The notes beneath the pieces are model-generated. The model was given only the letters and a program-made list of their open reading frames with translations. It was not told the origin of the DNA and ran no database searches. Positions 57,977-61,912 of a stretch of 64,000 bases of DNA are shown piece by piece (the first letter of the stretch is position 1; each line of letters opens with the position of its first letter). A program made the translations under genes and the position numbers. Source of the stretch: an uncultured Prevotellaceae bacterium (GTDB lineage: Bacteria > Bacteroidota > Bacteroidia > Bacteroidales > Muribaculaceae); assembly GCA_900318345.1 (NCBI GenBank), contig ONKD01000002.1, positions 29,146 to 93,145 on the forward strand. The letters are read 5' to 3'.

Positions 57977-58138
57977 GGGTGTGTCATAATTTTCGCTTGA
58001 AACATTGATCGAGCTTCGCTCGAAAAATTTAAAAATTGATATAAAAATTTTAATTGTTTTAATTTTAATACAAAATTCGTTTTAATTTCTCGGCCGTAGG
58101 CCGATATATGTAGCGGCATTGCAATTATGACACAGCCC
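57977..58138. mobile_element. MITE-like element with two triloop hairpins
   Basis: About 162 bp bounded by inverted ends: GGGTGTGTCATAATT (57977-57991) and AATTATGACACAGCCC (58123-58138), 12 bases of which (TGTGTCATAATT) match exactly. Inside are TCGAGC-TTC-GCTCGA (58009-58023) and TCGGCC-GTA-GGCCGA (58090-58104); the rest is AT-rich and has no open frame. Just outside, CCCTGCAGGCGG (about 57904) and CCGCCCGCAGGG (about 57938) form another inverted pair. No transposase here. Confidence 0.5.
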
Positions 58139-58190: not shown

Positions 58191-60866
58191 TCAAGGCCAG
58201 GAACCGCCCAAGAGGTAGTCGATGAGGGCGGTGACGTCGCTGATGGAGATGTCGTCGTTCAGGTCACAGTCAGCGTTGTCCATATTGATGCCATCGGCGT
58301 TACCGCTCAACAGGTAGTCGATCAGGGCCGTGACATCGGCAATGTTGACGGTTCTGTCCTCATTCACATCGCCGCGCAGCAAGCCGCCCTGCTTGGTCAT
58401 GCGCCACACGGTCAAGTGGCTGCCGGGATAGTACTGGTAAATGATGACCTCGCGTGGGCCGGTTACCTCGGCATTGAGCCAGTTGGCTTGATAAGAGTTA
58501 GCGTCGGCAGTGGCGGTCTGAGGAACATTGACGAGAGGCTCGACGGCACCTGACTGAGCAACGGCAAAGCCGTCGCGGTAGTTGTTGAGTGTGGGATAGA
58601 GCACCAGCTCCATGCCATCCCAGATGAAGGGGTAGGCGCCATTGTTGTTGCCCTTGTTGGGCAGACTGAGTCCCATGGCAGTGAAATTGTCGCCGTCAAA
58701 TGCCAGTTTTTGCACCGAATTGGAGCGGTTGACATACAGTATGGCCTCATTACCATCCAGATCGGTATAATAATTGAGCACCGTGCCGCTGTTGGGTGCC
58801 ACGCCATCGCAGTTGGCGAGGTAGGAATTGTCTGCGTCGATTTCCCCGTCGGTGATCTTGATGCGGCTGATAGTAGTTCCGCTATTGGCACCCACGAGGT
58901 AGAGTTCACCGTCCTCAAGCAGGTTGCCCTTGGCGAAGCCCATGTTGTCGCTGCGCCCAAAGTTGATGAGGTCAACGGGTAGGGTATAGGTAACGACATC
59001 GCCGGTAGTAGGATTGATGACCTTGATGGTGGGGCTGCTGGCCCACGTGTTGGGGAAGTTGGCGTTGCTTACCACAAAGTTGCCTGCTTCGTCTCGGGTA
59101 AAGCCCACATTGGATCCACCCTCATAGGTCGTGCCTGTTAATCCGTTCTCGTCCACCTCATAGATGGTACTCGTGGCCTTATCGTTGACATAGTACTTGC
59201 CGTTCATGCCAAAGCCCTGGCGAGCGTCAGCCATTGATAAGAATGAAGTGATGTTATTGATTTCCCACACTTTCTCGATTGAGTAGGTGACGGGTGTGGG
59301 CTGTTCTGGGTCGGGGTCATCGGGATTGTCGTTCACGCCCAAATAGGCGGGAGCGCTCTCGTTGCCGTAGCCGTCAATCACGCAAACGGCATACCAGTAG
59401 CCGTTCTGGTATTCGCTAGGCAGGATGTAATCAGGTTTGTAGGCCACGCCCAGCAGGTAGTCGCTCTTGATGCCGTCATAGGCCGTGCTCATGGCCTCCT
59501 CGATCGTTATGTCGGCAGGTACGGCATAGACTGAGTACTTGACCAGTGTGCCTTCCTGGAGATTCCACGACAGGGTTGCACCATTCTGGACAAGGCCAGT
59601 GGGAGCATCATATCCCGGAGCGGTCTTCCAGGTCACGGCGGGTATCATTGCTGGATGCTGGAAGGCATTGGCGAGCAAGTAGTTGCCCAGTCCGCTCACG
59701 CCGTTGTTGTTGCCGTTGATGTTCTTGGCGCTGTAGAGGACTGCACCAGGAGAATTGTCCTCAGTATATTGGCGTGAGTAGTTGATTTGCTTGACTATTT
59801 CGGCCCAGTCGCTCGTCGTGTTACTCGACGAGGCCAGGAACGAGATGCTGTGACTCGCATAGTGATGGCGTCCGTAATGCTTTGCGATATAGCTCCACCA
59901 GTCGGTCAACGGACCGAAGGGGTTGGTCGAGTGGGTCGTCTTCCAGTAGATCTGAGGCGAGATGTAGTCGATGGTGCCCTGTTCCAGCCAGGCCAATGGG
60001 TCACTGAAGATGCCGTTAAACTGCCAGTCACTGCCCGTGGGGCAAGGAGTCACACCATGCTGACCTGCCGATGTGCTGGCGGTGCCTGCCACGCCGGCAG
60101 GGCTGATGCCAAATCGCACCTCGGGCTTGGTCTCCTGTATCATGTTGTACACATCGGCGACCATCATGTTGACGTTGTTGCGGCGCCAGTCGGCAAGCGT
60201 CATATCTACGCCCGAGTCATTCCACAGGTCATAGTCAGGTGCGCTTCTATTGGTGGGAATACCGTTGGGGTAGAAGTAGTCGTCAAAGATGATGCCGTCC
60301 ACATCATATTTGGTGATGATTTCCCTGATGACATTGACGATGCGCTCGCGGGTGGCGGGGAGGCCGGGATTGAGGATCGTATAGGTCGATGAGCCGTCAT
60401 TGTAGCTGAGCAGCATGCCGGCGTTTTGCAATGCCTGGTCTTGAGGCGTATTCCAGTTGGTGCCGGTGCTCCAGCGGTAAGGGTTGATCCAGGCATGGCA
60501 CTGGATGCCGCGGGCGTGGCATTGTTCAACGGCATATTCCAGCGGGTCATAGCCCGGGTTCTTGCCGCGGGTGCCCGTCAGGTAGCTGGACCAGGGCTCA
60601 TAGCTGGACTGGTAGAAGGCGTCACACATCGTGCGCACCTGCAAGAAGACAGCATTGAAGTTCTGCGCCTTGAATTGGTCCAGGTAGGTGTTGAGCTCAT
60701 TCTTTTGGGCGGTAGCATTATTGACAGTCGTGGGCCAGTCGATGCGATAGACCGTGGCGACCCATGCGGCGCGCATTTCGCGCTTTATGGCCTCATCGGC
60801 TGTCGCTGTGATGCCTGCTGTCACAGCAATTGCAATGAGAAGTAACAAGATTCTTTTCATATTCAT
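58191..60866 (-). CDS. secreted GHL10 (FAM10/DUF187) glycosidase with dockerin-like tail
   Basis: 891 residues, start at 60866 (or 60860). Signal peptide (to about 22), then the GHL10 barrel (about 30-410; REMRAAWVATVYRIDWPT, NFNAVFLQVRTMCDAFYQS, GIQCHAWINPYRW, DVDGIIFDDYFYP, VRFGISPAGVAG, DYISPQIYWKTTHS). A fibronectin-III-like part and a beta-propeller-like region follow, and two dockerin-like repeats close it (GDVNEDRTVNIADVT, CDLNDDISISDVT). E. coli DigH of this family cuts denuded peptidoglycan; substrate here unknown. The last Asp-rich repeat is shortened. Confidence 0.85.
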   Translation of the reverse strand: MNMKRILLLLIAIAVTAGITATADEAIKREMRAAWVATVYRIDWPTTVNNATAQKNELNTYLDQFKAQNFNAVFLQVRTMCDAFYQSSYEPWSSYLTGTRGKNPGYDPLEYAVEQCHARGIQCHAWINPYRWSTGTNWNTPQDQALQNAGMLLSYNDGSSTYTILNPGLPATRERIVNVIREIITKYDVDGIIFDDYFYPNGIPTNRSAPDYDLWNDSGVDMTLADWRRNNVNMMVADVYNMIQETKPEVRFGISPAGVAGTASTSAGQHGVTPCPTGSDWQFNGIFSDPLAWLEQGTIDYISPQIYWKTTHSTNPFGPLTDWWSYIAKHYGRHHYASHSISFLASSSNTTSDWAEIVKQINYSRQYTEDNSPGAVLYSAKNINGNNNGVSGLGNYLLANAFQHPAMIPAVTWKTAPGYDAPTGLVQNGATLSWNLQEGTLVKYSVYAVPADITIEEAMSTAYDGIKSDYLLGVAYKPDYILPSEYQNGYWYAVCVIDGYGNESAPAYLGVNDNPDDPDPEQPTPVTYSIEKVWEINNITSFLSMADARQGFGMNGKYYVNDKATSTIYEVDENGLTGTTYEGGSNVGFTRDEAGNFVVSNANFPNTWASSPTIKVINPTTGDVVTYTLPVDLINFGRSDNMGFAKGNLLEDGELYLVGANSGTTISRIKITDGEIDADNSYLANCDGVAPNSGTVLNYYTDLDGNEAILYVNRSNSVQKLAFDGDNFTAMGLSLPNKGNNNGAYPFIWDGMELVLYPTLNNYRDGFAVAQSGAVEPLVNVPQTATADANSYQANWLNAEVTGPREVIIYQYYPGSHLTVWRMTKQGGLLRGDVNEDRTVNIADVTALIDYLLSGNADGINMDNADCDLNDDISISDVTALIDYLLGGSWP

Positions 60867-61066: not shown

Positions 61067-61188
61067 CCTCGAAGAGGATAATCGGGTCGAAGACTCGATT
61101 TCAATTGAAAACACCATGCAAGCCCGTCGATGACGGGCGCAGCTTGGTGCGAGAAGAATCAATAGGAAGTGCGTCGTAGACGAACTTC
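61067..61188 (+). repeat. left hairpin array of the transposase locus
   Basis: Four hairpins in order: H1 CCTC-GAA-GAGG (61067-61077); H2 TCGgGTC-GAA-GACtCGA (61082-61098); H3, 40 nt (61111-61150), outer CACCA/TGGTG and inner GCCCGTC-GAT-GACGGGC; H4 (61166-61188), outer GAAGT/ACTTC and inner GTC-GTA-GAC. All have a C(GNA)G triloop on the plus strand. The array is mirrored at 61699-61820. Confidence 0.85.
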
Positions 61189-61200
61189 TTTTCTCCGAAA

Positions 61201-61232
61201 TTTGCTATTTATTGGCTCAATGATTACCTTTG
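61201..61232 (+). promoter_or_regulatory. promoter of the transposase gene
   Basis: TTTG (61201-61204), exactly 20 bp, TACCTTTG (61225-61232), a full host-type promoter 24 bp before the ATG. Confidence 0.7.
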
Positions 61233-61256
61233 CATTAGCATCTAAATAAAAAGAAT

Positions 61257-61700
61257 ATGAGTGCAGTCAGTTCAATGTATCACGTTGTCATCAATACTTA
61301 TCGTCGACAAATGACAATTCCTGAAGAGACGAGTGAACACATGTATCGTTACATCTGGTCGATAATTAAAAGCCGAGGTTGTAAGTTATACCGGATTAAC
61401 GGCACATGTAATCACATACACATGTTGATTGAATTGTCGCCTACGATGGCTTTGAGTGACTTAGTGCGTGATATCAAGCAGGGTAGCAGCAAGTGGGCTA
61501 AGCAACAAGTGTATTTCCCTCAATTCAGTGGTTGGGGCAAGGAATATGGTGCTTTTTCTTGTAGTTGTCGAGAAAAAGAAGCTATCACAAATTATATTAT
61601 CAACCAACGGGAACATCACAAGGCCAAGTCGTTTGAGGACGAATATAAAAGCATGATAGAACTGTCGGGCATCGAGTGGAATGATAATCGTCTTACTTGA
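61257..61700 (+). CDS. Y1 (HUH) transposase, IS200/RAYT-like
   Basis: 147 residues, a complete Y1 transposase domain. His53 and His55 in CNHIHMLIEL are the metal ligands of the HUH motif, and Tyr113 in ITNYIINQREHH is the nucleophile that would cut single-stranded DNA. No tnpB lies near. Its TGA stop overlaps the first hairpin of the right array. The gene has a regular promoter and no disruption, so it may be expressed. Flanking hairpin arrays resemble REP/RAYT loci rather than a plain IS200 copy. Confidence 0.9.
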   Translation: MSAVSSMYHVVINTYRRQMTIPEETSEHMYRYIWSIIKSRGCKLYRINGTCNHIHMLIELSPTMALSDLVRDIKQGSSKWAKQQVYFPQFSGWGKEYGAFSCSCREKEAITNYIINQREHHKAKSFEDEYKSMIELSGIEWNDNRLT

Positions 61701-61820
61701 AGTTCCTCTTCGAGGCACTTGCTGCGCATCATGTTAAGCACCAAGCTGCGTGGGCCTTCGACCCACTTGCATGGTGTTTCTTAACGAAGCCGGGTCATCG
61801 ACCCGTCCACCTCTGCGAGG
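61699..61820 (-). repeat. right hairpin array of the transposase locus (mirror of left)
   Basis: Order reversed: H4' (61699-61720), H3' 40 nt (61738-61777), H2' CGGGTC-ATC-GACCCG (61791-61805), H1' CCTC-TGC-GAGG (61810-61820). On the minus strand the loops read GAA, GAA, GAT and GCA. H3' keeps the flanks ACACCATGCAAG and CGCAGCTTGGTGC of H3 exactly, while its inner arms differ (TGG/CCA against CCC/GGG). Confidence 0.85.
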
Positions 61821-61889
61821 CGAACTGATGGCTGAAACCCTGCGATGTGTGAAGTGATTTACTGAAATGGCCTTGAAATGCAGTCAAAG

Positions 61890-61912
61890 GAAGTGCGTCG
61901 AAGACGAACTTC
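61890..61912 (+). repeat. extra H4-type hairpin
   Basis: 23 bases starting GAAGTGCGTCG and ending ACGAACTTC, differing from H4 (61166-61188) by one base in the loop (GAA for GTA) and in the same orientation. It lies 70 bp beyond the right array and 131 bp before the next gene. Confidence 0.8.

Follow-up and report, generated by a model that had tools for sequence, protein, structure and literature searches.

A small gene for a Y1 HUH transposase, tnpA, lies between two arrays of short hairpins in the genome of a rumen bacterium, and the locus raises the question of what these hairpins are to the enzyme. The window, by which we mean the whole 64-kb stretch of DNA that was analysed, is part of a 93-kb contig in a host genome of 3.17 Mb and 82 contigs. 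Within it, tnpA (61257-61700) stands between a divergent GHL10 gene (58191-60866) and a DUF6249-like gene, with no tnpB neighbour. An earlier note made on this DNA had described four hairpins on each side in mirrored order and strand, and this was confirmed: the arrays read H1-H2-H3-H4, tnpA, H4'-H3'-H2'-H1', with the right set reversed in both order and strand (Table 1), and they form an inverted repeat (61083-61150 and 61738-61805) of 75% complementarity. Its observations that H3 and H3' have identical flanks (ACACCATGCAAG before, CGCAGCTTGGTGC after) around inner stems that differ by paired changes, and that CGTC/GACG in H4 is replaced by CCTC/GAGG in H4', were likewise upheld. Its statement that every loop is C(GNA)G applies to six of the eight hairpins (GAA, GAA and GTA; GAA, GAA and GCA), the loops of H3 and H2' being GAT. 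The stems of H1 and H1' are only 4 bp long. C(GNA)G-loop hairpins scoring at least 6 numbered 13 in the window; six lay inside 61080-61912, more than expected by chance, one of which (61795-61835) is an unlikely long fold. An Rfam scan of the window at gathering thresholds returned one tRNA and nothing else.

Table 1. Features of the tnpA locus, in window coordinates.
Feature	Coordinates	Strand	Details
H1, CCTC-GAA-GAGG	61067..61077	+	Stem covaries in relatives; GNA in 16/17 left arrays
H2, ATCGGGTC-GAA-GACTCGAT	61081..61099	+	One G-T pair; GNA in 16/17 left arrays
H3 with frame, ACCATGCAAG-stem-CGCAGCTTGGT	61113..61148	+	Inner stem-loop 61122-61138, loop GAT; 35-nt frame in 33/33 pattern matches; inner stem covaries; GNA in 12/17 left arrays
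H4, GAAGT-g-CGTC-GTA-GACG-a-ACTTC	61166..61188	+	Internal G/A mismatch; stem covaries
Putative Bacteroidetes-type promoter	61201..61232	+	TTTG 61201-61204, 20 nt, TACCTTTG 61225-61232
tnpA, Y1 HUH transposase, 147 aa	61257..61700	+	PF01797, 2.6e-22
H4'	61699..61721	-	Loop GAA on - strand; overlaps tnpA stop codon
H3'	61740..61775	-	Shares the H3 frame; loop GAA, inner stem-loop 61750-61766
H2', CGGGTC-GAT-GACCCG	61791..61805	-	
H1', CCTC-GCA-GAGG	61810..61820	-	
H5, ninth hairpin, H4-like	61890..61912	+	Outside right array

The TnpA protein scored 62.3 bits with the transpos_IS200 profile, above the cutoff of 55, and 22.8 with the REP_Tyr_transpos profile, under the cutoff of 80. Its catalytic residues are intact (H53-I-H55, Y113, Q117 and H120-H121; positions counted by hand on the translation). 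The motif YIINQREHH corresponds to the Y---Q--HH signature that marks TnpA_Y1 subclass 1.2, and this signature was present in all 74 sequences checked, all of which had been selected for their similarity to TnpA and at least three of which (L073, L074 and L077) duplicate others (L052, L054 and L060). The Y---NP motif of RAYT class 2 was not found in TnpA, which reads YIINQ at this position. Placed by signature only, TnpA is thus predicted to be an IS200-like TnpA_Y1 protein of subclass 1.2 and not a member of the Y---NP RAYT class. Distant relatives of known structure are the PDB entries 2f4f (3.9e-5) and 2xm3 (5.7e-4). TnpA was the sole match in the host genome at E <= 0.001; a weak Y1 domain match of 22.8 bits lies elsewhere in that genome.

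Nineteen relatives of the element were found, the nearest named being MAGs from the gut and rumen that carry the labels Muribaculaceae, Prevotellaceae or Bacteroidales. In ten of them the element occupies the corresponding place: both neighbouring genes are common to nine (L046-L052, L054 and L055), and the tenth (L053) shares the right neighbour and has on its left the next gene but one, panC. Distances between tnpA genes correlated only moderately with those of the two neighbours (0.40 and 0.59), though the neighbours themselves were almost uncorrelated (0.06). Comparison of these loci shows vertical descent of the tnpA copy in the window. Against its ten counterparts, tnpA gave pN values of 0.066-0.087 and pS values of 0.72-0.91, pS being saturated in nine of the ten; tnpA is under purifying selection.

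These data bear on the reading of the locus as a plain, self-mobile insertion sequence of the IS200 type whose ends happen to be elaborate. TnpA shares the HUH/Y1 family with IS200/IS605 elements such as IS608 and ISDra2, the protein is IS200-like with its HUH, Y and Q in place, and two records hold two copies each (L057/L058 and L061/L062). The subterminal hairpins at both ends of IS200/IS605 elements lie on the same strand, however, and no such arrangement was found at this locus, where the end hairpins are mirrored. Further, unlike these elements, tnpA sits at a fixed locus between GHL10 and DUF6249-like genes rather than beside tnpB, with one match in the host and a corresponding place in ten relatives, and the copies located elsewhere (L058 and L060/L077) sit in inverted repeats of another kind. 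A self-moving insertion sequence is therefore quite improbable.

The arrays were then compared across relatives. The left alignment comprised 17 arrays, namely the window, 15 relatives and a copy without tnpA (L003), and left out L057 and L059 (left side cut), L063 (a near copy of L062) and L064 (partial). The right alignment comprised 15 arrays and left out L058 (insertion in H3'), L061-L063 (contig ends) and L064. In the left arrays 95.9% of cells paired, and 15 of the 30 pairs had changed on both sides, with 53 two-sided cells; in the right arrays 97.5% of cells paired, and 11 of 29 pairs had changed on both sides, with 25 two-sided cells. Column shuffles matched the observed values in none of 500 trials on nine of ten measures and in two of 500 on the tenth (pair types, right), and sliding the partners by 1-3 columns lowered pairing to 31-47%. 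The 11 orthologous loci alone retained 17 two-sided cells on the left and 6 on the right. The H3 frame kept a length of 35 nt in every pattern match although its stem differs widely. GNA loops were found in 16, 16, 12 and 15 of the 17 left arrays for H1 to H4, the H3 loop being non-GNA in five, and in 15, 14, 13 and 15 of the 15 right arrays for H1' to H4'. Collectively, this comparison shows hairpin structure to be under selection at the locus. Two rearrangements were seen among the arrays. In L055 (3442-3670) part of the right arm occurs twice in tandem, with H3'-H2'-H1' repeated after the first set, and L170 resembles the same locus; in the right flank of L058, the H3' frame is interrupted by about 90 nt of inserted sequence.

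The same alignments speak to the alternative that the sites work as double-stranded inverted repeats, which TnpA or a host protein would bind in duplex form. The invariant flanks ACCATGCAAG and CGCAGCTTGG could be duplex motifs. However, stem letters change while pairing is kept, and the triloop is strand biased; neither should matter in duplex DNA, and we consider binding of this kind highly unlikely.

Folded hairpins may be selected as DNA or as RNA. Among 942 pair cells, 894 were Watson-Crick, 32 were mismatches and only 16 (1.7%) were G-T. G-U pairs are tolerated more by RNA helices, and the scarcity of G-T pairs thus points to DNA rather than RNA as the selected form. In 16 of 16 loci a TAnnTTTG box, which we take to be the Bacteroidetes-type promoter consensus along with its TTTG element, lies no more than 75 nt from the ATG, downstream of H4 and between the left array and tnpA. 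With the promoter box in this position, the left array is probably not part of the tnpA mRNA. Hairpins in IS200 mRNA provide a precedent for RNA roles, and it could be argued that the arrays act as terminators, insulators or mRNA stabilisers around tnpA: hairpins fold in RNA too, and the right array, which shares bases with the tnpA stop codon, would fall in the 3' UTR. Against this stand the low G-T content, the position of the left array upstream of the promoter box in all 16 loci and, in the window, between divergent genes, and the opposite polarity of the hairpins on the left and right. An RNA role for the arrays thus seems quite unlikely. The earlier note had proposed selection on structure, acting on DNA rather than RNA, and had suggested an alignment in relatives; the covarying stems on both sides, the few G-T pairs and the promoter box downstream of the left array bear this proposal out.

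Relatives of TnpA were sought at three taxonomic levels and found in 96 of 198 genomes for the family (E <= 1e-3), 73 of 198 for the order (1e-20) and 108 of 247 for the phylum (1e-10); the best 30 loci from each search, which are not a random sample, were taken. At 58 Bacteroidales loci, 29 from the same family and 29 from other families, triloop hairpins with stems of 6 bp or more were counted up to 350 nt from the gene. GNA hairpins lay on the mirror-image strands in 128 cases and on the other strands in 31. Within the family, 76 were on the expected strand and 11 on the other (left, 38 GNA and 6 TNC; right, 5 GNA and 38 TNC). In other Bacteroidales families, 52 were on the expected strand and 20 on the other (left, 30 GNA and 5 TNC; right, 15 and 22), with seven of the 15 right GNA hairpins coming from L133 and six of these from one tandem. 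This tandem of six hairpins, with core ATCGGTTGCACCGAT, occupies the right flank of L133 next to a tnpA relative. Far flanks contained ten GNA or TNC hairpins (5 + 5) in 69 kb, and shuffles gave 0.85-1.5 of each per set. At the 51 Bacteroidales loci with full flanks, GNA hairpins were present on the left in 35, on the minus strand on the right in 34 and on both sides in 28.

A second set of loci, found by Pfam, overlaps the first and includes the window. Among its loci with Y---Q--HH, 20 of 27 had at least one expected hairpin, 12 of 26 had both sides, and seven of 27 had no expected-strand hairpin; the set held 50 expected-strand and 17 other-strand hairpins. Three Y1 loci of this set without the full signature had no such hairpins. 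The hairpin association weakens at the level of the phylum, where at least one side was found in 18 of 27 loci and both in 5 of 27, with 36 hairpins on the expected and 18 on the other strand, and with 13 in 38 kb of far flanks. Of three further distant loci, Persicobacter had one hairpin, and neither Bernardetia nor a phage contig had any. As controls, nine Y1 loci on plasmids of non-Bacteroidota origin, hand-picked from 304 records with a match, had two GNA hairpins, one TNC hairpin and no mirror pair.

A second hairpin accompanies the GNA hairpin at many of these loci. Hairpins whose stems are 6 bp or longer and have [AT]A[AG]CC as their foot were counted at 53 loci of less than 60% identity; 46 were found within 250 nt, compared with none in far flanks, 1.4 in shuffled sequence and 12 on the other strand, and 28 of the 53 loci had at least one. 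Where a GNA hairpin lay no more than 80 nt upstream of such a foot, 27 of 31 stood at 17-20 nt, measured from loop end to foot. By the same measure, the distance from H2 to H3 in the window is 20 nt, to the CACC of the H3 foot AAACACC. In an alignment of the two-hairpin module, the loops fell one or two columns apart. Since the [AT]A[AG]CC motif was noticed in these loci before counting, the counts describe them and are not an independent test.

The earlier note had also suggested a search for the hairpins elsewhere in the host genome, and had named their absence there together with a lack of covariation in relatives, or plain IS200 ends in relatives, as grounds against its reading. None of this was seen: homologous arrays were found elsewhere in the host, and the arrays of relatives covary. 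The array model gave eight matches: the two arrays, the two arms of a mini-element on contig C71 that has no tnpA match, one match each on C28, C56 and C60, and one near H5. Array matches were present in 85 of 101 genus genomes and numbered at least three in 62 of 101; up to 34 candidates were scored per genome, so the per-genome counts are lower bounds. Four genus genomes (G060, G079, G122 and G156) had array matches without a tnpA match, and one (G173) had a distant tnpA and no array match. Among the matches listed, 20 array-copy regions were read. Facing matches about 20 nt apart form mini-elements, and 8 of 13 array copies examined were bounded on each side by variants of TTRGTGTCCGGGGAAA; L183 and the copies in the host itself are degenerate or cut. 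All eight fetched pairs of TTRGTGTCCGGGGAAA-type ends chosen away from arrays (L190-L197) enclosed other sequence without the H3 frame. Because such ends occur without arrays, another transposase probably moves these elements, and because dispersed copies often lie in MITEs, their dispersal cannot be taken as a sign that TnpA is active; the idea that it proves TnpA mobility was dropped on this ground.

Could the arrays then simply be carried along in MITEs that another, DDE-type transposase moves, and be kept only as MITE structures? The TTRGTGTCCGGGGAAA variants and their independence of arrays are consistent with this, as are L058 and L060/L077, which carry tnpA, are located elsewhere and have inverted-repeat ends of another kind, GGGGACACCTGCAAAA-like. 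Of eight stretches fetched by the GGGGACACCTGCAAAA-like end, L200 and L205 had H3 frames, and L203 and L204 had no array in the part read, in which only one end was seen. However, no inverted repeat was found outside the arrays at the window locus or in 8 of 10 counterparts, the other two (L046 and L054) having weak AT-rich inverted repeats of other sequence, and the stems covary at the orthologous locus regardless. Carriage as MITE cargo is thus an unlikely account of the arrays.

Other repeats were encountered in these searches. The short motif GTCGNAGAC was rejected as a genome-wide repeat, with 29 matches compared with 117 for the reversed control. The TCGGCCGNAGGCCGA family, whose motif (in TCGGCCGTAGGCCGA) has 35 genome copies and none in the control, was set aside as a related GNA repeat because its window copy lies inside a MITE-like stretch (57977-58138) with ends GGGTGTGTCATAATT and AATTATGACACAGCCC that holds TCGAGCGAAGCTCGA and TCGGCCGTAGGCCGA. 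Arrays of a second type, whose H3-like frame reads ACCATGGC..GTGGCTTGGT, were seen in L069, L070 and L078 and have copies in the host; in L078, from another genus genome, such an array accompanies a tnpA of 55-56% identity. In two genomes, half arrays without tnpA (L180 and L184, about 500-670) lie directly upstream of one gene, which we read as presumably encoding aspartate-semialdehyde dehydrogenase.

In Quentin et al. (2018, PMC6006769), subclass 1.2 is characterised by the Y---Q--HH signature, is listed as "no" for REP and generally has no typical IS200 ends. TnpA resembles the subclass as described there in its signature, its length (147 aa and about 148 aa), its low copy number with one match, and its occurrence in Bacteroidetes; the GNA hairpins on the left, the right or both sides of the Bacteroidales loci counted above distinguish these loci from that description. 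The arrangement of a single tnpA flanked by inverted hairpin DNA is like that of REPtrons and RAYTs. The TnpA_REP of Stenotrophomonas maltophilia (PMC8266576) requires a perfect palindrome that contains a triloop with a critical G at its first position, and is inactive on the complement strand; by analogy, the hairpins here would be candidate sites that are likewise strand specific with a triloop starting with G. Unlike RAYTs, TnpA has Y---Q rather than Y---NP, each side carries four different hairpins, and the aligned arrays, read by eye, have no GT[AG]G foot, the foot in relatives being [AT]A[AG]CC. Dispersed hairpins, a RAYT trait, are matched in most genus genomes, but the copies examined often lie in MITEs. 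The earlier note had named REP/RAYT systems as the nearest relative; this stands as a working analogue without the GTAG foot, and fails for the enzyme, whose signature is that of IS200-like subclass 1.2. As in TIRtrons and their TIRYTs (PMC3733652), a Y1 gene lies within inverted repeats, and the ends of L058 and L060/L077 have GGGKACAC- or GGGGACAC-like letters, near the TIRtron GGGGWSAS of that source; no GGGGWSAS terminal inverted repeats were found outside the arrays at the window locus. In the open-licence literature no description of such arrays was found, and the GNA-loop literature gave no transposase paper among the matches listed.

We consider it likely that the locus is a REPtron-like unit, in which a subclass 1.2 HUH/Y1 enzyme is flanked by its own recognition sites. 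Strand polarity, spacing and the subclass signature are shown by comparison of predicted hairpins and proteins; that TnpA binds and cuts these hairpins is what we infer from them. Apparent selection on single-stranded DNA hairpins beside a predicted single-stranded DNA nuclease with intact catalytic residues supports this, and recognition by TnpA would be the simplest link between nuclease and hairpins, with the S. maltophilia enzyme as precedent. In the proposed mechanism, the hairpins would form where a single DNA strand lies open, the lagging-strand template being one example. TnpA would read the triloop, whose first base is nearly always G and which is usually GNA, together with the irregularities at the foot, such as the G/A mismatch of H4 and the H3 frame. 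It would probably also read the spacing, about 20 nt, from the GNA hairpin (H2) to the foot of the second hairpin (AAACACC in H3; [AT]A[AG]CC elsewhere), and it would nick nearby via Y113. The left and right sites would face opposite strands, like inverted REP pairs, and the stem letters would drift with compensation because stems need only pair.

A broader proposal, that mirrored GNA hairpins, read by a ruler of 17-20 nt to a second hairpin with an [AT]A[AG]CC foot, are the cognate single-strand sites of subclass 1.2 in Bacteroidota as a whole and form their own REP class, domesticated at fixed loci, in which stems that vary yet always pair would show that loop, foot and spacing but not stem letters are read, is put forward tentatively, as a possibility that falls a little short of an even chance. 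Subclass 1.2, published as an IS200 relative without IS or REP features, would gain candidate substrates of defined strand, loop, foot and spacing, which makes its biochemistry directly testable. These findings suggest that a domesticated Y1 enzyme may recognise folded single-stranded DNA in a second way, one that does not depend on GTAG.
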